From NCBI GenBank assembly GCA_015060925.1, contig SUXM01000014.1, positions 1 through 64,000 of the forward strand: 64,000 nt of DNA, given 5' to 3'. Shown here one piece after another: positions 1 through 63,002 of this stretch (position 1 is the first letter of the stretch; each line of letters opens with the position of its first letter). Position numbers and translations under genes: made by a program. Below the pieces are notes generated by a model. That model saw only the letters and a program-made list of their open reading frames with translations. It searched no databases and had not been told where the DNA came from. This DNA comes from Parabacteroides distasonis (GTDB taxonomy: Bacteria; Bacteroidota; Bacteroidia; Bacteroidales; Tannerellaceae).

Positions 1-72
1 GTATTTTCGTCCTAAAATCGTTATCCGATTGATAAGAAAGGGAATAGAAAAGAAAAATATTTATGAAAAATA

Positions 73-103
73 ATTGTAGGAATAAAAACTATATGTATTT
101 TTG
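73..103 (+). promoter_or_regulatory. Bacteroidetes-type promoter
   Basis: An ATTG -33 element (73-76) lies 19 bp from a perfect -7 element TATTTTTG (96-103) followed by C. Transcription would start near 107-111, at the first base of the hairpin that follows. No gene start is within reach, so the product would be a very short RNA or a longer read-through transcript. Confidence 0.5.
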
Positions 104-110
104 CAGTGTG

Positions 111-150
111 AAAATGACCAAAAAAACCGTTCGTTTTTTTTGGTCATTTT
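111..150 (+). terminator. Strong hairpin, terminator or short RNA
   Basis: The left arm AAAATGACC plus seven A (111-126) pairs with eight T plus GGTCATTTT (134-150), and a T-rich tail follows. It could end a gene that enters from the left of the window. It could also be the whole body of a tiny transcript from the promoter at 73-103. The structure is close to symmetrical, so it could work on both strands. Confidence 0.6.
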
Positions 151-331
151 TGTTTTCGTAGATTTCTCATCATCAGACAATTAGCATTTTCAGCAGATTT
201 CTTTGGAGGGTAAAAAGAGGGTTTTCGCCTTAAAAGGTCGATTTTACTTAAAGTACTGGGGTTAAAGGTTTTAAAGTATTTAAGGAGCTTAAGGGGGTTA
301 AGGCAAAAAAGTAAAAAACGGGCTTTTTCCT

Positions 332-415
332 CTCAAATGGCGGTTTTCGGCTTTTCAAAGTGTTTCTTTTTCTTAAAAAGCAGCCCTCTATTTATTAAGG
401 TATAAGGAGTAAAAA
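332..415 (+). repeat. 84-bp intergenic element, copy 1
   Basis: It starts CTCAAATGGCGG, runs through the shared core GTGTTTCTTTTTCTTAAAAA and ends GGTATAAGGAGTAAAAA. A second copy in the same orientation is at 41819-41904 with scattered substitutions. Neither copy codes for protein. Copy 1 leads directly into the 17-bp repeat cluster at 416-474. Confidence 0.65.
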
Positions 416-474
416 TCACATCGGAGGTAATTCAGATTACATCCGAGGGAATAGTCCATTACATCCGAGGGAAT
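416..474 (+). repeat. 17-bp repeat cluster, locus 1
   Basis: There are three direct units with a period of about 22 bp: a diverged unit at 416-431, then ATTACATCCGAGGGAAT at 436-452 and again at 458-474. Related clusters lie at 19378-19437 and 62943-63002. Here all units share one orientation, unlike the other two loci. Confidence 0.7.
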
Positions 475-535
475 TTCAAAGTTCGATAAATAATAAGGGG
501 AATCCAATTAAAATAACTATAGGTCAAAGAGTTCT

Positions 536-1645
536 TTATTCTTTTGGACTTTTCATCTCCAGATAACACCAGACAGGATAATGATCTGAATAACGCACCT
601 TATCAACCGTACAATTCATTGGTATCATGTTATCTGAATGCAAGATATTATCGATCCGAAAGAAATAAAAATTCTCATTATAAGAGACTCCCGGTCCACG
701 TCCGGATTCGACAAAAGCATCTTTTAAAGAACCACGCATTGTCCGATAAACATAAGAGATCGGAGTGTCATTAAAATCCCCACAAACCAGAAGATAATCC
801 GTCTCTATATTTTTTATTTCTTCTGCTACTGCCTCCGCTTGCCGTGCCCGCACCTTAAAAGCTGGTCCTAATTTATGCTCGATAGAAGATTTTAGTCCTC
901 CTAATGTTTCTGTATTCATGTTTTTAAGAAAAGCCGAATAATTACTTTTATCCTCCATCGTCAATTTGAAAGATTCCAAATGGTTATTGACAAGCGTCAG
1001 CTTCTTTCCATTTATATTCAACTCATGGATAGACGAGCCATTAGAAACCGTCTCATATTTTATTTTCCGAGATTTAGAAATAGGATATTTAGAAAAGACT
1101 GCGATAGAAGAAGAGCCGAGAGGTATCAAAGAGCGATACCGATACATTTTCAACGCATTAAACACCTTCTTATTGGTCAGATATTTCTTAGATGTCCCGA
1201 CGATATATTCTTGCAGGCAAACGATATCTGCATCTGAATTGGCTATATATTCGATGATGGGATTCGGATTCGTTACGGAATGGTCTTTATAACCAAATCC
1301 CATGACATTATAAGTCAAAACCTTCAATACATATTCATTAGAAACAACCTCTTTTTTCTCATTATAAGGGAAATAACGTGTAACAGCTCCTTTACAAAGC
1401 AAAAAAGAACATAAACCTATCAGTACAAACCTCCACTCCCACAGGAAGATCCAATAAAAAACAAAGCAAAGATTTAATACACAAAAAACCGGGAAAGCCA
1501 ATCCTAAATAGGAGAAAAATAGACTTGTTTCAGGAGATATTCTATCCGAAAAGGCTGACAATATAAAAAAAATAATCACTACTCCATGTATTGTCCCAAC
1601 AACAGAGCGAAAAAGCAACCTTATTACATTAAAGAAGTTCTTCAT
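536..1645 (-). CDS. Endonuclease/exonuclease/phosphatase family membrane protein
   Basis: This 369-residue protein has three hydrophobic segments in the first 95 residues followed by an EEP-fold domain (about 105-365). Recognisable family motifs are YNVMGF, the metal-binding Glu in CLQE, NHLES, GDFNDTP and the C-terminal SDHYPV with its catalytic His. The fold covers Mg-dependent phosphodiesterases and phosphatases; the substrate cannot be told from sequence. The predicted topology anchors the enzyme in the inner membrane. It is the last gene of a three-gene unit and its ATG overlaps the stop of the upstream rhomboid by 4 bp, which suggests coupled translation. Confidence 0.85.
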   Translation of the reverse strand: MKNFFNVIRLLFRSVVGTIHGVVIIFFILSAFSDRISPETSLFFSYLGLAFPVFCVLNLCFVFYWIFLWEWRFVLIGLCSFLLCKGAVTRYFPYNEKKEVVSNEYVLKVLTYNVMGFGYKDHSVTNPNPIIEYIANSDADIVCLQEYIVGTSKKYLTNKKVFNALKMYRYRSLIPLGSSSIAVFSKYPISKSRKIKYETVSNGSSIHELNINGKKLTLVNNHLESFKLTMEDKSNYSAFLKNMNTETLGGLKSSIEHKLGPAFKVRARQAEAVAEEIKNIETDYLLVCGDFNDTPISYVYRTMRGSLKDAFVESGRGPGVSYNENFYFFRIDNILHSDNMIPMNCTVDKVRYSDHYPVWCYLEMKSPKE

Positions 1646-2520
1646 TTTTTACTTGCATCAAACAACTTTTTCTTTTCCTCTGACGAAAGGCTACCATATC
1701 CGGAGTGCTTCAGTTTATCCAATATGGCGTCTAAATCAACCACTTCTTGATGTTTTCTCGCATTATATTCATAATCCGTTTCTGCACGCTTATAGGTTAC
1801 ACGCATCTTTGGTTTCCGCTTTCCCATATTTACAAACCAATCAATCAAGTGATTCATTGGAGCGGTCAAATCTTTTCCTTTCTGGATCTGAACCGCAAAC
1901 AAAATCCCCAACAACGCTCCCCCGATATGCGCCAAATGACCACCCGCATTAGAAGAAGTAATTGCCAACAAATCAACTACAAAGGTAAACAAGGCCAAAT
2001 AGAGCAACTTCACCCTTCCTACCAACAAAAGATTAACTTCCAGATCCTTTTGATAGAAAGCAACAGCAAAGACAATAGCCATCACAGATGCGGAAGCCCC
2101 CATCAGAAAACTGTAACCGGCCATATTCTGAAAATAAGGGAATATGTTATAAGAAAGCATAAACAAGGCAGCCCCTGCTATTCCACCCCAAACATACAGA
2201 CCTCCGAGTTGCCTTTCTCCCCAAAAAGTAAGGAACAGACCTCCAAACCAATACAACCAAAGCATATTAAAAAGGATATGCAGGAAGTCAAAATGAGTGA
2301 ACATATAGGTAAAAATAGTCCACGGGCGGTAAAGCAACAATTCCGGAGATGACGGGCATTGAAGATATTGTAAAAAAGAGGTACTACCTATATTAAACAA
2401 CAACAAGCAAACACTTATCAACCTCACCATTACAAATATCCCGACATTGATATAAATTAGTTTTGTCAGAATACTACCTGCCTTAAAATTTTGTCTCAGA
2501 TTAGTAAAAATATCGGCCAT
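1642..2520 (-). CDS. Rhomboid family intramembrane serine protease
   Basis: This 292-residue polytopic protein carries the rhomboid catalytic pair: Ser in GASAS (TM4) and His in HLAHIGG (TM6). An HFDFLHILFNMLW segment corresponds to the TM2 HxxxN motif. After the last membrane segment comes a charged cytoplasmic tail of about 80 residues rich in Lys and Glu. I place the start at the ATG at 2520; the in-frame TTG at 2526 is unlikely. The gene begins inside the 3' end of the upstream rhomboid gene (overlap about 20 bp), so the two are probably co-translated. The function is cleavage of membrane-anchored substrates; targets are unknown. Confidence 0.9.
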   Translation of the reverse strand: MADIFTNLRQNFKAGSILTKLIYINVGIFVMVRLISVCLLLFNIGSTSFLQYLQCPSSPELLLYRPWTIFTYMFTHFDFLHILFNMLWLYWFGGLFLTFWGERQLGGLYVWGGIAGAALFMLSYNIFPYFQNMAGYSFLMGASASVMAIVFAVAFYQKDLEVNLLLVGRVKLLYLALFTFVVDLLAITSSNAGGHLAHIGGALLGILFAVQIQKGKDLTAPMNHLIDWFVNMGKRKPKMRVTYKRAETDYEYNARKHQEVVDLDAILDKLKHSGYGSLSSEEKKKLFDASKK

Positions 2521-3211
2521 TATCAAAATCTTTCTTTTTCCAATAACGAACTAAAAAATATCCAAAAAGCATTCCCCCCAAATGGGCAAAATGGGCAACG
2601 GAATCGCCACTATAATTAGCCACGCCCATAAACAGTTCTGCCAAACCATAAAAAACGACAAAATACTTCGCCTTAATCGGTACAGGAATAAACATCAAAT
2701 ATAAAGGGACATTGGGGAACAACATGGCAAATGCGAGCAAAATACCAAAAACCGAGCCAGAAGCCCCTACTGTAACCAGATAATTCAATGACTGATCCAT
2801 GGCTATCAACTGGATTAAGGAAACACCATTCGAACTTGCGAATGACTGTACAGAGTAGAGCCAAACCAGTTCCTGAATAATTCCGGCCCCAATACCTGTC
2901 ACCATATAAAAGGTCAAGAAACGTTTCGGTCCCCATACATTTTCCAACACACGTCCAAACATATAAACCCCAAACATATTAAAGAATACATGAGAGAACG
3001 AATGGGTATCATGCATAAACATATAAGTAAAAAGCTGGAAGGGATAAAAATCTCTTACACCCGGGAAATGCAGACCAAACAACTTCACTAAATCAATTCC
3101 AATCTTTGGCAAAGCAAGACTTGCCACCCAAAATAAGAGATTGATAATGATAAGGTTTTTAGTAACGACAGGGATACTATTTAAGAAACTCGAACTATTT
3201 TGATTCATCAT
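2501..3211 (-). CDS. Rhomboid family intramembrane serine protease
   Basis: This second rhomboid (about 236 residues) has the catalytic Ser in GASGSVFG, His in HFAHLGG and the TM2 motif HVFFNMFG. It ends shortly after the last membrane helix, so it lacks the long tail of its neighbour. The longer in-frame start at 3289 is rejected because a -7 promoter element (3230-3237) lies inside it. The double ATG at 3211/3208 follows an AAAGGAA-like ribosome site. It is the first gene of the rhomboid-rhomboid-phosphatase unit. Confidence 0.9.
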   Translation of the reverse strand: MMNQNSSSFLNSIPVVTKNLIIINLLFWVASLALPKIGIDLVKLFGLHFPGVRDFYPFQLFTYMFMHDTHSFSHVFFNMFGVYMFGRVLENVWGPKRFLTFYMVTGIGAGIIQELVWLYSVQSFASSNGVSLIQLIAMDQSLNYLVTVGASGSVFGILLAFAMLFPNVPLYLMFIPVPIKAKYFVVFYGLAELFMGVANYSGDSVAHFAHLGGMLFGYFLVRYWKKKDFDNGRYFY

Positions 3212-3229
3212 ATTCCTTTCTTTTTTAGA

Positions 3230-3237
3230 CAAAGGTA
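3230..3237 (-). promoter_or_regulatory. -7 element of the rhomboid operon
   Basis: TACCTTTG on the minus strand matches TAnnTTTG and lies about 19 bp upstream of the double ATG. A clear -33 TTTG is not seen; TTTA at about the right distance is the best candidate. It fixes the start of the first rhomboid downstream of 3230. Confidence 0.5.
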
Positions 3238-3309
3238 AATATATTTTGGCAGTTTTCCGGTAAAACAGCACTAAAACATAGTAAATCAATTAAAAAAACT
3301 CTTTTTTTC

Positions 3310-3394: not shown

Positions 3395-3667
3395 ATGAAC
3401 AAAACAGAATTTATCAATGCTGTAGCTGAAAAGTCTGGCTTAAGCAAGATTGATGCCAAAAAAGCAGTTGAAGCATTCGTTGAGACAGTAACAAACGAAC
3501 TTAAAGAAGGTGGTAAAGTTGCTCTTTTAGGTTTTGGTTCTTTTTCTGTCGCAGAAAAATCTGCCCGCAAAGGTGTTAATCCAAAAACTAAACAGCCTAT
3601 CGAAATTCCGGCACGTAAATCTGTCAAATTCAAAGCAGGTGCTGAATTAGCAGATCTTATCAAATGA
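3395..3667 (+). CDS. hup: HU family DNA-binding protein
   Basis: This 90-residue protein spans the full length of an HU/IHF subunit. The N-terminal dimerising helices (1-40) are followed by the GFGSF signature and a beta-arm with the NPKTKQPIEIPA tip, which contains the Pro that intercalates in DNA. HU is an abundant nucleoid protein that bends DNA without strong sequence preference. The gene is monocistronic, between its own promoter and a hairpin terminator. Within the family, HU fits better than IHF, since Bacteroidales IHF-like paralogues are usually longer or more diverged. Confidence 0.95.
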   Translation: MNKTEFINAVAEKSGLSKIDAKKAVEAFVETVTNELKEGGKVALLGFGSFSVAEKSARKGVNPKTKQPIEIPARKSVKFKAGAELADLIK

Positions 3668-3864: not shown

Positions 3865-5658
3865 ATGGTTATCGAAAAACAGATTACCGATGCAATCATT
3901 GCTGGGATTAAAGAATTATATGGTGCTGACATTACAAGCAACCAAATACAGTTACAGAAAACCAAGAAAGAGTTTAAAGGTCATTTAACGTTAGTGGTGT
4001 TTCCCTTTCTCCGTACTTCAAAGAAATCACCGGAACAAACCGCACAAGAAATCGGGGAATATTTACTTCAACATGAAGCGGCTATCTCCGAGTTTAATGT
4101 CATCAAAGGATTCTTGAACTTGACTATTGCCGGTTCTCAGTGGATAAGCTTATTAAACGACATCAATAATCAACCGACATACGGAATTGTCCCTGTTACC
4201 GAACAATCCCCGTTAGTCATGATCGAATACTCTTCTCCAAACACTAACAAGCCGCTCCATTTAGGTCACGTCCGCAACAACCTGTTAGGCTATAGTTTGT
4301 CTGAAATCATGAAGGCAAACGGGAACAAAGTAGTAAAAACTAACATCGTAAATGACCGTGGGATCCATATTTGCAAGTCAATGTTGGCATGGCAAAAATG
4401 GGGAAATGGTGTAACCCCTGAATCCGCAGGAAAGAAAGGTGACCATCTTATCGGTGATTTCTATGTTCTTTTCAGCAATAAGTTAAAAGAGGAGACTGCA
4501 GCTCTTGAAGCACAAGGGATGACCAAAGAGGAGGCAGAAGCAGCTTCTCCTTTAATGGCTGAAGCCCGTGAGATGCTTCGTAAGTGGGAAGCCGGCGACA
4601 AAGAGGTTCGTGCACTTTGGGAAATGATGAACAACTGGGTATATGCCGGTTTTGATGAGACCTATAAGATGATGGGGGTTGACTTCGATAAGATTTATTA
4701 CGAATCTCAAACCTACTTGGAAGGCAAGAGCAAAGTTTTGGAAGGTCTTGATAAAGGTATTTTCTATCGTAGAGAAGATGGTTCTGTTTGGGCAGACTTA
4801 ACCCAAGACGGTTTGGACGAAAAACTTCTTCTACGCACAGATGGCACTTCTGTTTACATGACCCAAGATATAGGTACTGCCAAGTTACGTTTTGATGATT
4901 ACCCAATCAACAAGATGATTTATGTGGTAGGGAACGAACAGAATTACCATTTCCAAGTATTATCTATCCTTTTAGATAAATTAGGATTTGAATTCGGCAA
5001 AGGTTTGGTTCACTTCTCATACGGAATGGTAGAACTACCGGAAGGTAAAATGAAGAGCCGTGAAGGAACAGTGGTTGATGCTGATGATTTAATGGAAGAG
5101 ATGGTTAATACCGCCCGCGAAATATCTCAAGAATTGGGCAAATTGGACGGCATGACACCGGAAGAGGCTGAAAATATCGCACGTATGGTAGGTTTGGGTT
5201 CTTTAAAATACTTTATTTTAAAAGTGGATCCTCGTAAGAACATGACCTTTAACCCTAAAGAATCTATTGATTTTAACGGAAATACAGGACCATTCATCCA
5301 ATACACATACGCACGAATTTGTTCTGTCCTTCGCAAAGCAGCCGAACAAGGTATCGTTCTTCCGACTCAGTTAGCTACAACTACTGCTATTTCTGAAAAA
5401 GAGGAGAATTTGATCCAGATGATTGCCGACTATGCAACCATCGTTCGTGAAGCAGGCAAAGAATACAGCCCGGCTCTTATAGCCAACTATACTTATGATT
5501 TGGTGAAAGAATACAACCAATTCTACCATGATTTCTCTATCCTTCGTGAAGAGAACAATGAAACAAAACAATTCCGCTTGGTATTATCTGCCAATGTAGC
5601 AAAAATCATCAAATCAGGAATGGCTTTGTTGGGTATAGAAGTTCCTGAAAGAATGTAA
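3865..5658 (+). CDS. argS: Arginyl-tRNA synthetase
   Basis: This class I aminoacyl-tRNA synthetase of 597 residues charges tRNA-Arg with arginine. It shows an N-terminal Arg-tRNA synthetase additional domain (about 1-85), the HIGH motif as HLGH in SSPNTNKPLHLGH and the KMSKS-like motif KMKSREG. The C-terminal helical DALR anticodon-binding domain ends in GIEVPERM. I chose the ATG at 3865; an in-frame GTG 36 bp upstream overlaps the promoter. The gene stands alone and ends at a terminator shared with the convergent topA. Confidence 0.97.
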   Translation: MVIEKQITDAIIAGIKELYGADITSNQIQLQKTKKEFKGHLTLVVFPFLRTSKKSPEQTAQEIGEYLLQHEAAISEFNVIKGFLNLTIAGSQWISLLNDINNQPTYGIVPVTEQSPLVMIEYSSPNTNKPLHLGHVRNNLLGYSLSEIMKANGNKVVKTNIVNDRGIHICKSMLAWQKWGNGVTPESAGKKGDHLIGDFYVLFSNKLKEETAALEAQGMTKEEAEAASPLMAEAREMLRKWEAGDKEVRALWEMMNNWVYAGFDETYKMMGVDFDKIYYESQTYLEGKSKVLEGLDKGIFYRREDGSVWADLTQDGLDEKLLLRTDGTSVYMTQDIGTAKLRFDDYPINKMIYVVGNEQNYHFQVLSILLDKLGFEFGKGLVHFSYGMVELPEGKMKSREGTVVDADDLMEEMVNTAREISQELGKLDGMTPEEAENIARMVGLGSLKYFILKVDPRKNMTFNPKESIDFNGNTGPFIQYTYARICSVLRKAAEQGIVLPTQLATTTAISEKEENLIQMIADYATIVREAGKEYSPALIANYTYDLVKEYNQFYHDFSILREENNETKQFRLVLSANVAKIIKSGMALLGIEVPERM

Positions 5659-9413: not shown

Positions 9414-10604
9414 TCAGCCCCTCAATTGTTCAGCCATAGCCTGGCCTAAATTCCAACAAGCTTCATATTTATCAGGACTCAACCCCTGCTTTTGTTCAAC
9501 CGGTTCGCCTACTATCGTCCATTTCATCTTTTCTCCAAAGGCAGCCAACTGCTTAACAGCCACACCTGACCAAGAGAAAGAACCAAAATAACCAAACAAA
9601 CGATTCTTAACTTCACGAGTTTCTATCTTATCCAAAATAGAAGCGACCTCCGGATATAACCGATTACTATAGGTTGGGCAACCGATGATCAATCCCTTAT
9701 ACTTAAATATATCTTTCAGAATATAAGAGGCCGGACTTTTACTCACATTGTGCATCACAATATTCTTCACACCATTAGCAGACAAGGAAGAGGCAATCGT
9801 TTCTGCCATCTGTTCCGTATTTCCATACATGCTACCATATACAATGGTAACACCTTCTTCACCTTCATAACGACTCAAACGATCATATATTTCAATCGCC
9901 TTTCCTTTATGTTCACGCCAGACAGGTCCATGAGTGGAACAGATGGTTTGAATATCCAAAGCAGAAAGTTTCTGTAAAGCACGCTGCACCGGATTACCAT
10001 ATTTTCCTACAATATTGGAATAATAACGAATCATCTCTTCCCAATAATGCTCTACATCCATCTCTGCATCAATAACACCACCATCCAATGTTCCAAAAGT
10101 ACCAAATGCATCAGCTGAAAAAAGTATCTTGGAAATCGCATCATACGTTACCATCACCTCTGGCCAATGTACCATCGGAGCCATATAGAAACTCAACTGA
10201 TGGCAACCAGTAGATAAAGTATCTCCCTCCTTCACTTCATACAATCCGGTAGTAATTCCATGGAAACCTTCCAACATGCCAAAAGTCTGTTTGTTCCCAA
10301 CAATTTGCACATCAGGGTATTGTTGACGCAAAAGACGAATACTTCCGGCATGATCCGGCTCCATGTGGTTCACTATCAGATAATCTAAAGTACGACCGTT
10401 CAACGCATCCTCAATCTTTTTCAAAAAGATATCCGAATAACAAATATCAACCGTATCAATCAATACAGTCTTTTCATCCACAATCAAATAAGAGTTGTAC
10501 GATACCCCATAAGGTAAAGGCCACAAATTTTCAAACAAGACCTTTTGGCGGTCATTCACTCCTACATAATAAATATGCTCTGCTATCTCTTTCAATTTAT
10601 ACAT
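9414..10604 (-). CDS. A-type flavoprotein (FprA-like diiron O2/NO reductase)
   Basis: This 396-residue protein has an N-terminal metallo-beta-lactamase domain (about 1-245) with the diiron motif HMEPDH and further His ligands in MVHWPE and STHGPVW. A C-terminal flavodoxin domain (about 250-396) carries the FMN loop [10 protein letters not shown]. The family reduces O2 to water or NO to N2O in the cytoplasm of anaerobes and serves as detoxification. No rubredoxin domain is fused, so an external electron donor is needed. The physiological substrate (O2 or NO) cannot be settled from sequence. Confidence 0.92.
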
Positions 10605-10639
10605 ATTACTCTTCCTAAAAAATTACCAAGTCGGTTCTT

Positions 10640-11479
10640 TTAACTTTCTACCTTCTGCTGCGAACCTTTTTTCAAAGCTCTCCCAATGCAATATACACCT
10701 AACAAAACAAAAGGAATACTTAACCATTGCCCCATATTCAATGTCATATTTGCTTCAAACGCTTCTTGATCGTTTTTCACCCATTCGATAAAGAAACGAG
10801 CCCCGAATATACAAATCATAAATATGCCAAAGATAAGTCCCTCCTTCTTCCAGGCATCTTTTTTGAAATACAACCACATACAAAGGAAAAAGGTTGCCAA
10901 ATAACAACCAGCCTCATAAAGTTGAGAAGGATGGCTCGGTACCGAAAAAATAGGATCTGCACCATTTTTCCAAGCATGTAGATTTTCAATAAAACGAAAT
11001 CCCCAAGGAAGATCTGTCGGATGGCCATAAATCTCATGGTTCATCAAGTTTCCCAAACGAATCATGGCAGCGACCAATCCGGTAGGAACAACCAGCATAT
11101 CAAAGGTCCACAACATACTACGATGGCTTACTCGCTTGGAATAAATATAGACAGCGACAATAATTCCTAACGTTCCTCCATGACTTGCCAAACCACCTTC
11201 CCAAACCTTCAATATTTCAATCGGGTTAGCCAAATAATAATCCGGTGCATAAAACAAACAATGTCCCAAACGAGCACCGATAATGGTTCCCATAATCGTA
11301 TAAATCAGCAAAGAATCTATCCAAGCCGGATTCAATTTCTCCCTGATCCACATTTTTTCTACAATCTTATAGCCGATAGCAAAGCCGATAGCAAATGCTA
11401 ATCCATACCAACGGATCTCACGAGAGCCAATGGAAAAAAGAGCCGGATCTGCTGTCCAAGTGATAAAATCAAGTAACAT
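10640..11479 (-). CDS. lgt: Prolipoprotein diacylglyceryl transferase
   Basis: This inner-membrane enzyme (279 residues, about seven hydrophobic segments) transfers diacylglycerol from phosphatidylglycerol to the lipobox Cys of prolipoproteins. The family signature IRLGNLMNHEIYG is intact, as is SHGGTLG. Its clients in this window include the SusD homologue, the fimbrillin-like protein and two lipoproteins near gyrB. The gene starts 4 bp after the ddh stop, so the two are co-transcribed. The C-terminal residues are basic and cytoplasmic. Confidence 0.96.
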   Translation of the reverse strand: MLLDFITWTADPALFSIGSREIRWYGLAFAIGFAIGYKIVEKMWIREKLNPAWIDSLLIYTIMGTIIGARLGHCLFYAPDYYLANPIEILKVWEGGLASHGGTLGIIVAVYIYSKRVSHRSMLWTFDMLVVPTGLVAAMIRLGNLMNHEIYGHPTDLPWGFRFIENLHAWKNGADPIFSVPSHPSQLYEAGCYLATFFLCMWLYFKKDAWKKEGLIFGIFMICIFGARFFIEWVKNDQEAFEANMTLNMGQWLSIPFVLLGVYCIGRALKKGSQQKVES

Positions 11480-12676: not shown

Positions 12677-14359
12677 TTATCTACCAACTGATCCCCAATG
12701 AGGATTTGTCTGAGTTTCCTTTTCAGGGATTTCCCATGTCATATGGTCGATAGAAAGTGTAGTTGTACTCCAGTGGTTAGATCCTTGGTATGTAGGAACT
12801 TCGTTCCAACGTTTAGCATTCCAGAAGTTCCAACCATTTTCACCCCAACATTCGATTCTCCACTGTAATTTACACATTTCCAATGCAGACATTCCCTGCA
12901 TAGAAGGATAATTATCACAAGTCAAAGTAGGGGCACCCGCTTTGGTACGAGCAGCCAACAACTTGTTCAATGTATTCTTAGCTTCAGTTTCATTACCGCT
13001 CTGAGCATATGCTTCAGCCATCATCAACACCAATTCAGAGGTACGATACAAAATCACATCTGATTCTGAATAAGTATGAGAACGTTCAGATCTTGTAGCA
13101 GGGATTGTTGCAGCCCATTTCAAAGTTGTGTAAGCAGGAACAGTATGAGGTACCCATACTGTATCATTGTTTACAAATCTGAAATATGGGAATTCAGCAC
13201 CTTGAGCCATGAAACGTTCTTTACGATAGTCATTGTCTGCCATTTTTGCCCACAATGCATTGTCAATCTGGAAATAAGCATTTGCTACCATATCAGAACC
13301 ATTCACAAATGGGTTATAATATGACCAGCTATATAAGTTGCTGTTCTTCCAACCAAAGATACATTCAGGGTTTCTTTCTACTGCTAAGAATGCATTGTCT
13401 GCAGCATTTACATCATCAGTATAATCGCATAAACCAGCAACGCGAGTATCAGAAACACCATAGTTTTCTTCTTTAATAAACTGCCAGTTGAATGCAGTCA
13501 TTACATCATTACAAGCAGTGATTACTGTCTGATAATCACCTGTCCACATACAAGCTTTTGCCAAGAAATATTGAGCCACACCAAGGTCAACGTCATAAGC
13601 AGTTACATTATCTACCGCTTTAGTATAACCACCTGTACCGATACTTGATTCTTTGAACAAACGAACCGCATCTTTCAAGTCTGTCAACAAGAAGCTCCAA
13701 GTTTCTTCAGCTGTAGAAGGAGCAACCGCATCTTGATAACCATAGGTCGTATAGATCGGCATACCATGACCGCTCTTACCACCATGTTGATACGCTTTTG
13801 TAAAACGTTCCATCAACTGCAAGTAACCCATACCACGAAGTGTCAAACACTGAGCTTTGTAACCTTTCAACAAAGGAGAATCTCCAACTACTTCATCACT
13901 CAAGAACATCAACACCTTATTTGCATTACTGATTGCTTGAGCCGGAGAACACCAGTAACCATAACATTCAGAAAGTTGTTTTGCACTCCAGTAGTTCAAT
14001 GCAGGGTTATTGGTATAATACTGTCCCCAACCAGAACCGTGGCGAGCACCATCACCATAAACGATATCACCACACTGCAAGTTACGATACATGTTGTTAT
14101 GTACCCATTCGTTATCGATAGACATGTTTGAGAAACCAGCAGACATGATGGTTCCACGATAACATACATAACCTTTCAAGTTTTGGACCAAACCGCCCAA
14201 CACCAATTCACGTTCTTCATCGCTACCGTTCTGCAACAAATTTTCAATCTGCTCATCTGTAAGAACTCCAGGATTATGTACATCCAATTTGGAGTCACAC
14301 GCAGTAAAAGCAGCAGTCAGAGCTAAAGCACCGCAGATATTTTTAATATATTTTTTCAT
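12677..14359 (-). CDS. SusD/RagB family surface lipoprotein
   Basis: This 560-residue protein has a lipoprotein signal peptide with the lipobox FTAC (Cys about 21), followed by DSKLDVHNPG. The rest is a SusD-fold: TPR-like helices (SANKVLMFLSDE, KGYKAQCLTLRGMGYLQLMERF) and the C-terminal block YRTSELVLMMAEAYAQSGN. The C-terminal EMCKLQWRIECWGENG also matches the family. It forms the substrate-capping lid over the SusC channel at the cell surface. No glycoside hydrolase, protease or sensor gene accompanies the pair, so the ligand is unknown. The gene follows the SusC gene by 25 bp. Confidence 0.93.
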   Translation of the reverse strand: MKKYIKNICGALALTAAFTACDSKLDVHNPGVLTDEQIENLLQNGSDEERELVLGGLVQNLKGYVCYRGTIMSAGFSNMSIDNEWVHNNMYRNLQCGDIVYGDGARHGSGWGQYYTNNPALNYWSAKQLSECYGYWCSPAQAISNANKVLMFLSDEVVGDSPLLKGYKAQCLTLRGMGYLQLMERFTKAYQHGGKSGHGMPIYTTYGYQDAVAPSTAEETWSFLLTDLKDAVRLFKESSIGTGGYTKAVDNVTAYDVDLGVAQYFLAKACMWTGDYQTVITACNDVMTAFNWQFIKEENYGVSDTRVAGLCDYTDDVNAADNAFLAVERNPECIFGWKNSNLYSWSYYNPFVNGSDMVANAYFQIDNALWAKMADNDYRKERFMAQGAEFPYFRFVNNDTVWVPHTVPAYTTLKWAATIPATRSERSHTYSESDVILYRTSELVLMMAEAYAQSGNETEAKNTLNKLLAARTKAGAPTLTCDNYPSMQGMSALEMCKLQWRIECWGENGWNFWNAKRWNEVPTYQGSNHWSTTTLSIDHMTWEIPEKETQTNPHWGSVGR

Positions 14360-14384: not shown

Positions 14385-17300
14385 TTAGAATTCAAGATTT
14401 AGACCAAGAGATACAGTACGCATAGTCGGATATACATACTGACCGATTTCCAAACCACCTGTCATAGACATCGCTGGGTCAATCCCCTTCTTCGCAGAGA
14501 TGTACCACAAGTTATCAGCTGAAGCATATACACGTAATTTGCTTACATTGATCTTATTCAAGATAGACTTCGGTAAAGTATAACCCAAAGTCAAGTTCTT
14601 CATACGCAAGTAAGAAGCTGAGAACAAAGACATATCTGTATACTTCCAAGAACCTGTAGTAGCACCATCATAGTAAACAGAAGAGCTGTTTGAAGCCCAC
14701 TGCATCGGGAAGAATGCATCCTGGTTTTCCGGAGTCCAAGTGTTACCAATCAAATCAGTTGATTGAGGCTGTCCACCACGTGCCAAGTAAGAAGAACGAT
14801 ACAAACCATTAGCATATTCTACAGAAATAAACTTACCACCGATCTGGTAAGCAAAGATTGCCTGCAAATCGAAATCTTTGTAACGAAGAGATGTAGTCAA
14901 ACCACCGATCCAATCCGGAGTTGCACTACCCATTTCATATAATGAGGCATCGGCTGAAACAGTTGTCTTTACATTTTCACCAATCTGCTTACCCGCATAA
15001 CGACCACCAGAAGCATTGTTATTCACGTCATCGTATGTTACACGGTGCCAGTACATAGGCAAACCTGATTCTTGGTCTACACCTGCATATTTGTACAAAT
15101 ACAAGTTGTACCAATCACGGCCTTCACCACGCAAATAGAATACACCTGAAGCATTTCCTGTACCTGCGCCACTCCAACCTTCACCGTTAGCAGTCCAAGT
15201 TCCGTCAGGAAGGTCATCTGTTGCATTCGGAGCCGGGATGGTTGTTTCTGGAACTGAAACCAAAGTAGTTTTATAATGTGTACCATTAAGACCTACGTTC
15301 CAAGTCCAGTCTTTTGTATTGATGATAGTCGCATTCAAATCCAATTCAAAACCGCGGTTACGTAGTTTAGCCGAGTTACGTTGACGAGTTTCTGTACCAC
15401 CGTTTGCCAAATAAGAAACCGGTTCATTGTAGAATGAGTTGGTTGTCAAGCTGTTGTAAAAGTCTACTGTACCTGACAAGCGACCACCGAACATTGTGAA
15501 GTCAACACCAACGTCAGTTGTATGAACATTTTCCCATGTCAAATCTTCGTTTACCAAAGAACCATAAGATACAGAATAAGTTTGAGCAGTACCTGTACCA
15601 TTTGTAGAAGTTGCCCAAGTACCCACACCGTATGACCATGTATGATGACCATAATCAGGAGCACCATTCTGGTTACCAATCACACCATAGCTTAAACGAA
15701 GTTTAGCATTATCTAACCAGCTCTTAGTTCCTTCCATAAATTCTTCAGAGGTAAATCTCCAACCTCCACCAACAGAGTAGAATACCCCCCATTTATCTTT
15801 CGCAAACTTAGAAGAACCGTCTGCACGTAATGATCCTGACAAGTAGTATTTGTCATCGTAGATATAGTTAGCACGAGCCAAATAGGATTCCATACGGATA
15901 GTACCCAATGACCAGGCCGGAGAACCCAAAGTTGAAACATTTGAATAACGTCTTACGAAGTTACCCGGAGATAGATAACCTGTTATTAATTCATCTGCAG
16001 TACCATATCTCAACTGGTCATAGCTGTTATCATTGTATTCGTGACCCACCAACGCATCTACATGGTGTTTACCGAAATCTTTGTTATAACTCAACAACTG
16101 CTGGCTGTTCAAAATAGTTCTCACGAATTTTGTCAATTCCATACCACCTGTTGCACCACCTACGTAACTACTACTTGGTAAATATCTCATGTAGCGATCA
16201 GCATGTTGGTCTAAAGAGAAATTGATAGTGAATTTAAAGTCATTCAAGAATGAGAAATCAGCATAGATACGAGAAGTCCATAAATCAACCTTTCTTTCAT
16301 TGATGTTGTTATCAAGGTCAAAAAGAACGTCAGAAGCCACACGGTTACCTTCTGTTGTTCCTAACGGAGAATAGGTTTCACCAGCAAAACCTGCTTCGAT
16401 CTTATCTCCATTCTTATCTAATGCATAACCTCCGATTGAACCATCGGCATTTGCAACACGTTCCCATACAGATACAATCGGGTGAGTACCGTTCGCATAC
16501 AACATTACGTTACCCTGAGCAGCACCCGGGTTACGACCATAACGAGTTGACATGGAGTTTGTAATTGTATGTGCGTAACTTACATTTGCACCAATCTTCA
16601 ACCATTTGTACAATTCAGCATCAACACTTGCACGACCTGTGTAACGTTTAAAGTCTGAAGAACGTACGTAAGATGGTTCATCCAAATAACCTAAAGATGC
16701 ATAATATTTCACCTTGTCTGTACCACCACTGGCTGAGATATCATACTGTTGACGGAAACCGGTACGTAACAACTGATTTGCGTATGTATCTTCATCAGTG
16801 TACAAATATTGTGCATTCGGATTGATCTTACCATCAGTTCCTACCAAATAAGCACCTGTCATAGTTGCAGAAGCTGTAGAACCAGAACCTACCGGAGTAT
16901 AGATAGCACCCGGTACGTTGTAAGCCATGTAGTTACCTAAACCGTTACGAGTAAAGTTGGTTTCTGAGTTTGCTGCACCGGCTACATAGTTGAACAAGTG
17001 TTGGCTGGCAAATTCAGCAGCCTGTTCGTGAGAGTAGTTCGGGTTATGAACATTAGTATAAGGATAACCATTGGCATCTGTTCCAGGAAGACCTGTTCCA
17101 TTTACACCATAACGATAAGAGTTGTAGATAGATCTCCAATAGTATTCGTAGTAATCAGAAGCTTCTGTCATACCAGAAGTATTAAAGTTACCTACAGAGT
17201 TCCAACCCCAACGGGCATCAAAACTGATACGAGTCTGACCACTCTTACCCTTCTTTGTTGTTACCAATACAACACCGTTCGCACCACGAGAACCGTAAAG

Positions 17301-17951
17301 AGCTGTAGAAGCAGCATCCTTCAAGACTGTAATGCTTTCGATATCTGAAGAGTTCATGTTTGACAACGGGTTAGTGTTCTGAGCCGGCACACCGTCAATT
17401 ACGATCAACGCACTTGCACTGTTACCGTTTGCAGAACTTGTACCACGCACACGGATACCCATGTCCTGCCCCGGCTGACCGTCACCAGAAGCCACCTTCA
17501 AACCAGGAGCAGCACCTTCCAACATCTTAGATGCAGAAGCTGAGCTCTGAGCTGTCAACACTTTAGAATCAATGGCACTCATAGAACCTGTCAAGTCTTT
17601 TTTCTTGGCAGTACCGTATGCCACAACAACAACTTCTTCAAGTTGTTCAGAATCTTCAACCATTGTTACGTTAATAACTTTCTGGTTGCCTACCACTACC
17701 TCTACCGGCTTGAAACCGATGTAAGAGAATTCAATAACTGCCTTAGCACCGCCTGGAACATCAGACAATACGTAAGTACCATCACCTAATGTCATTGTAC
17801 CAACGGTCGTGCCCTTGACAACAACATTCACACCCGGTAGTTCGAAACCTGTGTTATCGACTACCTTTCCCGAGATCGAAACTTGGGCAAATGCTGAGAA
17901 TCCCACAAATAGGAAACACAGCATGAATAGAATTCGATTTCTCATAATCAT
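14385..17951 (-). CDS. SusC/RagA family TonB-linked outer membrane protein
   Basis: This 1188-residue transporter has a signal peptide (about 1-24, ending SAFAQ), a carboxypeptidase-regulatory-like domain (about 25-100) and the TonB-box region EEVVVVAYG. A plug follows with RVRGTSSANG and LKDAASTALYGSRGANGVVLVTTKKG, then a 22-strand-type barrel ending in Phe. With the SusD lipoprotein it imports oligosaccharides or peptides using TonB energy. ATG codons at 17951 and 17945 are both possible starts. Its promoter lies inside a segment bounded by inverted repeats, so expression may be phase-variable. Confidence 0.95.
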   Translation of the reverse strand: MIMRNRILFMLCFLFVGFSAFAQVSISGKVVDNTGFELPGVNVVVKGTTVGTMTLGDGTYVLSDVPGGAKAVIEFSYIGFKPVEVVVGNQKVINVTMVEDSEQLEEVVVVAYGTAKKKDLTGSMSAIDSKVLTAQSSASASKMLEGAAPGLKVASGDGQPGQDMGIRVRGTSSANGNSASALIVIDGVPAQNTNPLSNMNSSDIESITVLKDAASTALYGSRGANGVVLVTTKKGKSGQTRISFDARWGWNSVGNFNTSGMTEASDYYEYYWRSIYNSYRYGVNGTGLPGTDANGYPYTNVHNPNYSHEQAAEFASQHLFNYVAGAANSETNFTRNGLGNYMAYNVPGAIYTPVGSGSTASATMTGAYLVGTDGKINPNAQYLYTDEDTYANQLLRTGFRQQYDISASGGTDKVKYYASLGYLDEPSYVRSSDFKRYTGRASVDAELYKWLKIGANVSYAHTITNSMSTRYGRNPGAAQGNVMLYANGTHPIVSVWERVANADGSIGGYALDKNGDKIEAGFAGETYSPLGTTEGNRVASDVLFDLDNNINERKVDLWTSRIYADFSFLNDFKFTINFSLDQHADRYMRYLPSSSYVGGATGGMELTKFVRTILNSQQLLSYNKDFGKHHVDALVGHEYNDNSYDQLRYGTADELITGYLSPGNFVRRYSNVSTLGSPAWSLGTIRMESYLARANYIYDDKYYLSGSLRADGSSKFAKDKWGVFYSVGGGWRFTSEEFMEGTKSWLDNAKLRLSYGVIGNQNGAPDYGHHTWSYGVGTWATSTNGTGTAQTYSVSYGSLVNEDLTWENVHTTDVGVDFTMFGGRLSGTVDFYNSLTTNSFYNEPVSYLANGGTETRQRNSAKLRNRGFELDLNATIINTKDWTWNVGLNGTHYKTTLVSVPETTIPAPNATDDLPDGTWTANGEGWSGAGTGNASGVFYLRGEGRDWYNLYLYKYAGVDQESGLPMYWHRVTYDDVNNNASGGRYAGKQIGENVKTTVSADASLYEMGSATPDWIGGLTTSLRYKDFDLQAIFAYQIGGKFISVEYANGLYRSSYLARGGQPQSTDLIGNTWTPENQDAFFPMQWASNSSSVYYDGATTGSWKYTDMSLFSASYLRMKNLTLGYTLPKSILNKINVSKLRVYASADNLWYISAKKGIDPAMSMTGGLEIGQYVYPTMRTVSLGLNLEF

Positions 17952-18027
17952 TAAATGTTAAATCAATAAAAATATTTAGGTTAAACAATCTATCCAACTC
18001 TATAAATCAGGCACTTAAATAAAGCGT

Positions 18028-18046
18028 AGTTCTCTAAGAACTATGT
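18028..18046 (+). repeat. Inverted repeat, left copy (AGTTC-N5-GAACT core)
   Basis: AGTTCTCTAAGAACTATGT reads exactly as the reverse complement of 18260-18278. The 15-bp core is itself a near-perfect dyad (AGTTCT, three bases, AGAACT), as expected for a dimer or recombinase binding site. It lies in the susC 5' leader, 77 bp from the start codon. Confidence 0.85.
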
Positions 18047-18259
18047 ACTTTTTGCTTAATATACAGATATTCAAATGCAAAATTAATTTATATTTTCAAT
18101 AAAACAATATATATGTAATAAAAACTGAAAAAATATGTAACAGATATAATTTCTTCAATATTCAAATTGATTTAAAATATTCTATTATAGTGCTATTCTC
18201 TTTCTATTTCATCTTTTTTGATATCCATTTATCAGCTTTTATCCCATAATTCATAAAAA
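18047..18259. other. Putative invertible promoter segment
   Basis: The 213-bp interval between the two inverted copies contains one good promoter, now facing susC. Reflection about the midpoint would put its -7 element near 18221-18228 on the plus strand. It would then face the lipoprotein gene at 18400. Invertible promoters upstream of SusC-type genes are known in Bacteroides. That this segment inverts is my inference. No recombinase gene is present in the window. Confidence 0.6.
18078..18108 (-). promoter_or_regulatory. Promoter of the susC-susD pair (inside putative invertible segment)
   Basis: On the minus strand, ATTG (18105-18108), 19 bp, then TAATTTTG (18078-18085) followed by C. Transcription would begin near 18071 and pass through the left inverted repeat, giving a leader of about 120 nt. 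Confidence 0.7.
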
Positions 18260-18278
18260 ACATAGTTCTTAGAGAACT
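18260..18278 (-). repeat. Inverted repeat, right copy
   Basis: ACATAGTTCTTAGAGAACT is the exact reverse complement of 18028-18046. It lies 121 bp upstream of the lipoprotein gene. Beyond these 19 bp the flanks of the two copies do not match, so the similarity is sharply bounded. Confidence 0.85.
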
Positions 18279-18399
18279 GACACATCTTTCTTTTTGTAAA
18301 AAACACATTACTACATTCACTCTTTCTTAAAAAAAATCTTTCTTATTTCAAATATTTATACTTTCTTTGTGTGGTTATTAACAATTAAAAAGCTTAGCT

Positions 18400-19365
18400 A
18401 TGAAAAAGAAAGTGCTTTATGCGCTTACCTGTGCGCTTACTTTAACAGGTTGTATCGGTGAATCATTCCATGAAAACGGTAGCACTCCGGTAGAAAAACA
18501 ATCCCCAATTCAATTTTGTGTCCAAATGGAAAAGGAAACACTCTCTTTCCCTATGACCAAAAGTATGCCTGAAAACACAATTGGAGAGCCGACTTCTGCC
18601 ACCGGAGATATTTATGAAGATGCTGAATTAACTGATTTATGTTCTACTTTGGAATATGTCGTTTTTAAAGAGGAGGAAAACAACCCTGTACTCATCAAAC
18701 ACAGGCAATATATCTACGACAGTTCAACTTTGGATGTAGACTTCGGGATCGTCTATGACACCCTACCGGAAGGAGATTACATCTTTTACTTTTTGGCCCA
18801 CAACTCCCAAACGGCCTCCCTCACTGGAACCACATTCTCTTTCGACAGTATCTCCGATTCTTTCTACCAGGCATTACCATTACAGATTGCCATAGCAGAG
18901 ACCATCAATGAAGATGTGACCCTCCAACGGATTGTCAGCCGTATCGAGTTTATGGCGACCGACCCTGTTACCACTGAAATCAAACAATTCGATATGGAGA
19001 TAGAGGGACGATTTAACCAATTGGATCTTACAACCGGCTACGGAATACAATCTTCCGAAACCGAAACTATCTCTCACCTCTTCAAAGAGGAGGAGGTCGG
19101 GAAGAGCAACTACATACATAGTTTCTACACATTTATTCCTGTATCCGAAGATCCTATTGCCACCCGCCTATCAGCCTATGACCAACACGATGAACTAATC
19201 CGTACACGCATGATTGATGCCATCCATCCGCAAATGAATAAAATCATCCGTTACAAAGGACGTCTTTACAGTCGATCGGAATCAGACAACACGTTCCAAA
19301 TCAGTATCTACAATAATGGAGAATGGGAAGAAACCACAGAGGTTACCTTACCCGAATATGAATAG
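18400..19365 (+). CDS. Fimbrillin-related lipoprotein (FimB/Mfa2-like)
   Basis: This 321-residue protein has a short lipoprotein signal peptide with the lipobox LTGC (Cys18). The body resembles the FimB/Mfa2 and fimbrillin families of Bacteroidales: PEGDYIFYFLAHN in the first domain, then LQRIVSRIEF at the start of the second. The C-terminal strand region ends FQISIYNNGEWEE. Such proteins anchor or cap short surface fimbriae. No fimbrial major subunit gene is adjacent, so it may be an orphan subunit or a related surface protein. It is transcribed divergently from the susC homologue across the inverted-repeat segment. Confidence 0.7.
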   Translation: MKKKVLYALTCALTLTGCIGESFHENGSTPVEKQSPIQFCVQMEKETLSFPMTKSMPENTIGEPTSATGDIYEDAELTDLCSTLEYVVFKEEENNPVLIKHRQYIYDSSTLDVDFGIVYDTLPEGDYIFYFLAHNSQTASLTGTTFSFDSISDSFYQALPLQIAIAETINEDVTLQRIVSRIEFMATDPVTTEIKQFDMEIEGRFNQLDLTTGYGIQSSETETISHLFKEEEVGKSNYIHSFYTFIPVSEDPIATRLSAYDQHDELIRTRMIDAIHPQMNKIIRYKGRLYSRSESDNTFQISIYNNGEWEETTEVTLPEYE

Positions 19366-19377
19366 GTTTAAACAAAA

Positions 19378-19437
19378 ATTACCTCGGACATAATTGGCTA
19401 TTACGTCCGAGGTAATCCCAATTACATCCGAGGTAAT
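19378..19437. repeat. 17-bp repeat cluster, locus 2
   Basis: An inverted unit ATTACCTCGGACATAAT (19378-19394) is followed by direct units ATTACGTCCGAGGTAAT (19400-19416) and ATTACATCCGAGGTAAT (19421-19437), then five T. The first two can form a 17-bp hairpin with one mismatch. It sits between the convergent lipoprotein and tRNA-Arg genes, so it may also act as a terminator. Units two and three are joined by CCCA, as at locus 3. Confidence 0.75.
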
Positions 19438-19448
19438 TTTTCCGTTTG

Positions 19449-62938: not shown

Positions 62939-62942
62939 TAAA

Positions 62943-63002
62943 ATTACCTCGGATGTAATTGAAAATACATCCGAGGTAATCCCAACTTAAGTCCGAGGTA
63001 AT
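62943..63002. repeat. 17-bp repeat cluster, locus 3
   Basis: An inverted unit ATTACCTCGGATGTAAT (62943-62959) is followed by direct units AATACATCCGAGGTAAT (62964-62980) and CTTAAGTCCGAGGTAAT (62986-63002), then T. The order and the CCCA joiner match locus 2 at 19378-19437. A TATAAAGGAGTAAAA word follows, like the end of the 84-bp element at 332-415. Confidence 0.75.

Follow-up and report, generated by a model that had tools for sequence, protein, structure and literature searches.

A putative invertible promoter beside a susC/susD pair of Parabacteroides and its matched-site relatives across the genus

Between a susC/susD gene pair and a fimbrial-type lipoprotein gene of Parabacteroides distasonis lies a short stretch of DNA with a promoter-like sequence enclosed by two inverted repeats. 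Its arrangement raises the question of whether the stretch can be flipped and which of the two neighbours such a switch would serve. We addressed this question in a window of 64 kb, namely the whole stretch of 64,000 nucleotides analysed here (contig C40 of the draft genome G000, 2.54 Mb and 88% complete), and in related genomes.

Recombination sites, promoter and importer genes in the window

The candidate segment spans positions 18028-18278 and measures 251 bp counting both sites. The left recombination site, AGTTCTCTAAGAACTATGT, is located at 18028-18046 on the plus strand and reads AGTTC-TCTAA-GAACT-ATGT, its partner with the same five-base centre (N5) falling at 18264-18278; the right site (18260-18278, minus strand) is the left one exactly inverted. 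The preliminary description of two exact 19-bp copies was thus correct, as was the dyad form that it assigned to them, except that the AGTTC-N5-GAACT core, called near-perfect, is in fact perfect. This pair is the sole exact 19-mer inverted repeat with arms less than 43 kb apart in the window. The bare 10-base dyad occurred at 8 places in the same genome versus 10 for a reversed control and was discarded as uninformative; the copy search suggested earlier returned 6 matches to the 19-mer at up to 3 mismatches versus 3 for the control. Since the dyad count is close to chance, the evidence resides in the pairing of the sites and not in the motif count of a single genome. With the spacing restricted to one narrow range, a search for the paired-site pattern found 11 matches versus 2 for the control, with none in the window's own genome.

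A Bacteroidales-type promoter was recognized between the sites on the minus strand (18078-18107), consisting of TTG at 18107-18105, a 19-nt spacer and the -7 box TAATTTTG at 18085-18078, and facing susC as previously claimed. The sequence TANNTTTG was found in 6/6 aligned segments of the window's clade. A scan for sigma-70-type promoters returned 3 against 4.8 expected, at or below chance. Downstream of the promoter, the minus strand encodes a susC-like TonB-dependent transporter (14385-17951; Pfam Plug and CarbopepD_reg_2), followed by a susD-like lipoprotein (12677-14359; Pfam SusD_RagB and SusD-like_3) that is presumably co-transcribed with it, so that the orientation present in the assembly would be the ON state of the importer. 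No terminator-like site was found on the minus strand between the promoter and susC, and the one that was found, on the plus strand at 18024-18046, would act on transcripts that run into the segment from the direction of susC. When the segment was exactly flipped in silico, the -7 box moved to 18221-18228 on the plus strand and the promoter to 18199-18228, about 170 nt before the ATG of the lipoprotein gene, in agreement with the earlier estimate of about 18198-18228.

Two further features were recorded. At four susC-like loci of the same genome (L045-L048), the first 140 bases, comprising the leader and the first codons, are 90-96% identical to those of the window's susC, which suggests that the susCD module was recently duplicated or converted. 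In addition, a 22-nt palindrome-like repeat, CAATTACATCCGAGGTAATTTT, occurs in the window at 456-477, 19375-19440 and 62940-62961, with four matches at up to 3 mismatches and none expected by chance.

Segment orientation and matched centres in related genomes

The window assembly displays a single orientation, and the other one was found by searching related genomes for a reversed segment, as had been suggested. At the orthologous locus L049 of a sister Parabacteroides species (G019), the segment is reversed between matching flanks on both sides, susC being 95.6% and the lipoprotein 78% identical to their counterparts in the window. Related susC genes in the window's genome and in G018 carry similar segments, and the promoter faces away from susC in L045, L046, L050 and L052. 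Among the matches listed, 45 comparisons of homologous loci returned 21 inverted and 24 same-orientation cases, which share loci and include paralogues and are not 45 independent events. These orientation contrasts come from genomes of different species, and the window's genome, G018 and G019 are incomplete drafts (82-88% complete). The comparative evidence, namely the reversed orthologous locus and the matched centres described below, supports the earlier proposal that 18028-18278 is an invertible promoter.

Strand exchange by tyrosine recombinases needs identical centres in the two sites. The N5 is equal within each pair and differs between loci, being TCTAA in the window, TTGTA, TAACA and TTGCA on contigs C5, C21 and C30, and TTTAT in G019. 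The motif AGTYCTNNNNGDACTAYG was then searched in 38 Parabacteroides genomes, giving 192 matches versus 29 for the reversed control; as the palindromic flanks let one site match on both strands, matches exceed sites. The survey set comprised 95 stretches around matches listed and 7 loci already in hand, and 101 of these 102 loci hold a site of the AGTTC-N5-GAACT form, L052 being the one without. To count as a partner, a site had to be inverted, carry the identical N5, lie within 1.2 kb and show no more than one mismatch in the arms. Among the matches listed, 117 of the 133 sites in the 101 loci have such a partner; a direct copy accompanies 6 of the 117, each time at a locus where a third site is present, and no site has a direct copy alone. 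The 16 partnerless sites, again among the matches listed, include 6 located no more than 125 bp from a contig end and 10 that are not near one. Arm-like sequences with a different N5, nearly all carrying one arm mismatch, lie near 79 of these 133 listed sites. An N5 is common to 3 of 347 within-genome locus pairs among the matches listed, versus about 7 expected from pooled frequencies; locus-private centres are therefore common, and the indication that shared ones are avoided is weak. These data support a real site class that is widespread across Parabacteroides. In a set of 198 Bacteroidales genomes, a motif match was present in 23, and more than one match in the two Parabacteroides only.

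Sites at the ends of segments that face no gene were compared with gene-facing ends for a terminator-like stem, in which the promoter-side inner flank of the site pairs with the outer flank. Among the matches listed, stems were present at 9/30 gene-less ends versus 4/69 gene ends (p = 0.0023). The idea came from L045, L046 and L050 before testing, which makes the analysis exploratory; when the two suggesting ends (L046 and L050) were removed, the listed matches gave 7/28 versus 4/69 (p = 0.012). When the test was first run on folding energy, p was 0.009; the U-tract count by itself gave p = 0.12. The test took 53 of 89 pairs, the other 36 being second pairs of a locus or pairs for which no single promoter could be clearly placed within 70 nt of a site, and seven ends of ambiguous class were also set aside. 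Gene labels were taken directly from unprocessed reading frames, and contig truncation accounts for some of the "none" labels, the right end of L050 being really susC. Example stems are those of L046 (-28.5 kcal/mol) and L050 (-26.8 kcal/mol); the contrary cases are L133, L166, L193 and L052, with 8/10 flank pairs at an end classed as gene-facing. Terminator-like stems may also serve convergent neighbour genes.

The survey returned other arrangements as well. At L123, L126, L153, L158, L177, L179, L183 and L196, from several Parabacteroides species, an invertible segment lies between two divergent genes with similar starts, giving apparent either-or switches. TonB-dependent, SusC-like genes (Pfam Plug and CarbopepD_reg_2) occupy both sides in L123, L126 and L177, and a TonB-dependent receptor the one side scanned in L153. 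In four species an invertible promoter stands beside a similar small gene (L117, L157, L176 and L192), pointing toward the gene in two loci and away from it in two; in L117 this gene encodes a sigma-70 family factor.

A candidate recombinase acting in trans

The preliminary description had reported no recombinase gene in the window, and this held for both families tested, as matches to the tyrosine (PF00589, n = 9) and serine (PF00239, n = 1, on contig C8) recombinase families were found in the genome and none on C40. One tyrosine recombinase (C30:43633-44802, corresponding to 9634-10803 of locus L082) shows Arm-DNA-bind_5, SAM-like and integrase domains. The gene lies about 5.5 kb from the site pair of the same contig, downstream of a pair of susC genes that face each other. 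Locus L082 (C30:34000-50000) carries this inverted pair (3565-3579 and 4172-4186) inside the two facing susC frames, which contain Plug domains; inversion there would swap the promoter and the N-terminus between two importers, in a shufflon-like arrangement. In locus L083 (C24:38000-47000), a tandem pair of genes at 2-3291, whose lipoprotein-like starts are nearly identical, lies close to a short tyrosine recombinase frame.

Genomes were scored as having the recombinase when they held a relative of the C30 type that was at least 60% identical along almost its entire length. This was the case for 18 of the 38 genus genomes, which hold 168 of the 192 motif matches, the other 20 holding 24 (Mann-Whitney p = 1.8e-5; the association was computed for the C30 type alone). 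Of the 20 genomes scored as lacking it, six carry a relative that is partial or more distant (46-63% over roughly 280-310 aa). The matches of G011, G014 and G018 each came with one in-frame stop. Individual genomes depart from the trend: 12 motif matches occur in G021, where no recombinase was detected at E <= 1e-60, and conversely the recombinase but no motif match was found in G023 and, outside Parabacteroides, in G090. At E <= 1e-90 the recombinase was found in 3 of the 198 Bacteroidales genomes, two of them Parabacteroides, and a paired site occurred in 1 of 26 stretches (2.6-4.2 kb) around the recombinase. The tracking of motif matches with the C30-type enzyme, which is an association and no proof, makes it a good candidate for flipping the segment in trans, in support of the action from a distance that had been put forward for this locus; it is not the sole candidate, as the genome contains eight other tyrosine recombinase matches and the serine one.

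In the mechanism that we propose, a tyrosine recombinase encoded elsewhere in the genome would exchange strands within the 5-bp centre of the two AGTTC-N5-GAACT sites and flip the segment. As drawn, the promoter would read susC and susD (ON), and after flipping both genes would lose it (OFF). Because the N5 differs between most loci of the genome, partners would match and different loci would mostly be kept apart.

The lipoprotein gene and the alternative explanations

The gene on the other side of the segment (18400-19365, plus strand) encodes a predicted Mfa2-type lipoprotein of the fimbrial anchor family, a marginal match to PF08842 (21.6 bits versus a gathering cut-off of 21.2). A promoter-like -7 box, TTTCTTTG, is fixed outside the segment at 18362-18369 on the plus strand. 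Orthologues of the lipoprotein were found across Parabacteroides, and T[AT]NNTTTG lies 30-33 nt before the start (40 nt in L038) in 12/12 of them, window and G019 included; the same pattern occurred anywhere in 13.6% of shuffled 60-nt upstream stretches. Where the best consensus has A at the second position, this box has T, hence we regard it as a promoter-like box and not as a mapped promoter. In 10 of the 12 orthologues no susC was detected directly beside the lipoprotein gene, also by tblastn with the window's susC, and the same 10 have no site pair within 600 bp upstream. The lipoprotein gene of G018 adjoins a diaminopimelate dehydrogenase gene 92.6% identical to the one that in the window sits beyond susD; by comparison with this arrangement, it appears that in the window and in G019 the susCD module was inserted next to a lipoprotein gene that was already there.

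It is thus most likely that the lipoprotein gene is served by a promoter of its own outside the segment, and it would be transcribed in both orientations. The earlier suggestion that each orientation starves the other gene is not supported, given the box in 12/12 orthologues, 10 of which have neither susC nor site pair. On the lipoprotein side, the flipped junction gives a weak fold (-9.6 kcal/mol) with no U-tract after the stem; as no clear terminator is present there, the flipped promoter could add transcription into the lipoprotein gene. The importer is therefore the likely client of the switch, the lipoprotein gene being a neighbour whose transcription may rise when susCD is OFF. Taken as a whole, an invertible promoter flipped by a trans-acting tyrosine recombinase, switching susCD ON and OFF beside a lipoprotein gene with its own promoter, is the explanation that we hold with considerable confidence. 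More tentatively, and with real doubt, we propose that one flip would trade the importer for extra fimbrial-anchor expression, susCD OFF coinciding with raised Mfa2-type lipoprotein, and that the sites would act twice, the N5 as a locus-private address keeping one-enzyme switches apart and the flanks at gene-less ends as a terminator only when the promoter is turned off.

A true two-way switch, in which the flipped promoter is a main lipoprotein promoter and the cell makes importer and fimbrial anchor by turns, would agree with the promoter facing the lipoprotein in G019 and with comparable arrangements between divergent SusC-like genes in the genus. Flank pairing at the lipoprotein end is also low (4/10 bases in both the window and G019), and the segments on C5 and C21 of the same genome and on C44 of G018 do have stems away from susC (8/10, 10/10 and 10/10). 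However, the absence of a stem says little, since 21/30 gene-less ends also lack a strong one, and both the conserved box 30-40 nt before the ATG and the apparent insertion of the susCD module beside a pre-existing gene speak against it, so that we consider a two-way switch of this kind improbable, if still worth weighing.

The remaining explanations dispense with present-day inversion. That the switch was once active and is now locked in this species would fit the one orientation of the assembly and the 16/133 sites elsewhere, among the matches listed, that lack a matched partner, 10 of these away from contig ends. Against it, the two arms agree at all 19 bp and the same genome encodes a candidate recombinase; a locked state therefore appears quite unlikely. 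Operators for a dimeric transcription factor, with no inversion, would account for a perfect dyad near a promoter at each site, as used by dimeric regulators. Such a reading conflicts with the reversal of the segment between orthologous loci, with a non-palindromic centre that is the same within a pair and different between most loci, as befits a strand-exchange region and not an operator class, and with the position of both L082 sites inside facing susC reading frames. On the strength of the inverted orthologue and the matched centres we rejected it, leaving it a very slight chance.

The preferred reading, an invertible susCD promoter, resembles systems of Bacteroides fragilis. The Tsr0667-controlled invertible regions of that species reportedly follow the consensus AGTYYYN4GDACT, attributed to Nakayama-Imaohji and dated 2009. 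The window sites, written as AGTTCT-CTAA-GAACT with an exact inverted copy, fit this consensus, and the window segment likewise adjoins susC/susD and carries a promoter; unlike those regions, it belongs to another genus and one of its flanks is an Mfa2-type lipoprotein gene with its own promoter-like box. The likeness to the Tsr0667 regions is one of sites, neighbouring genes and promoter. The inverted repeat of the Mpi type is ARACGTTCGT, which occurs in neither window site. According to one source (PMC4747536), Mpi is a serine recombinase acting on the capsular polysaccharide promoters of B. fragilis, a case comparable to ours in that several invertible promoters of surface structures are served by one enzyme. 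The same source describes invertible promoters of the SusC/SusD kind in B. fragilis, a tyrosine recombinase that inverts a local and a distant promoter, and an inverse correlation of transcription with how many inverted repeats separate promoter and gene (PMC4747536). The local and distant inversions resemble our model in the use of a tyrosine recombinase.

Invertible regions of the human gut community hCom2 have been catalogued by repeat, and several groups are mostly Bacteroidota with a Bacteroidota promoter, as stated in PMC11892184; the window's site class may already be listed among these groups. The portions seen of PMC4747536, PMC3090145, PMC12118408, PMC10994844, PMC10939037, PMC11892184, PMC12632263 and PMC8748976 held no description of the matched-centre or the gene-less-end terminator pattern, the former not being itself a search subject and the latter barely so.

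With these results, promoter inversion of the SusC/SusD kind would be extended to MAGs of Parabacteroides from animal guts, and putative switches of this type form a set that is spread over much of the genus and tracks one recombinase. An identical N5 within an inverted pair provides a simple computational test that finds switches from one assembly without reads, and the putative link of nutrient import to a fimbrial component by one flip is now directly testable.
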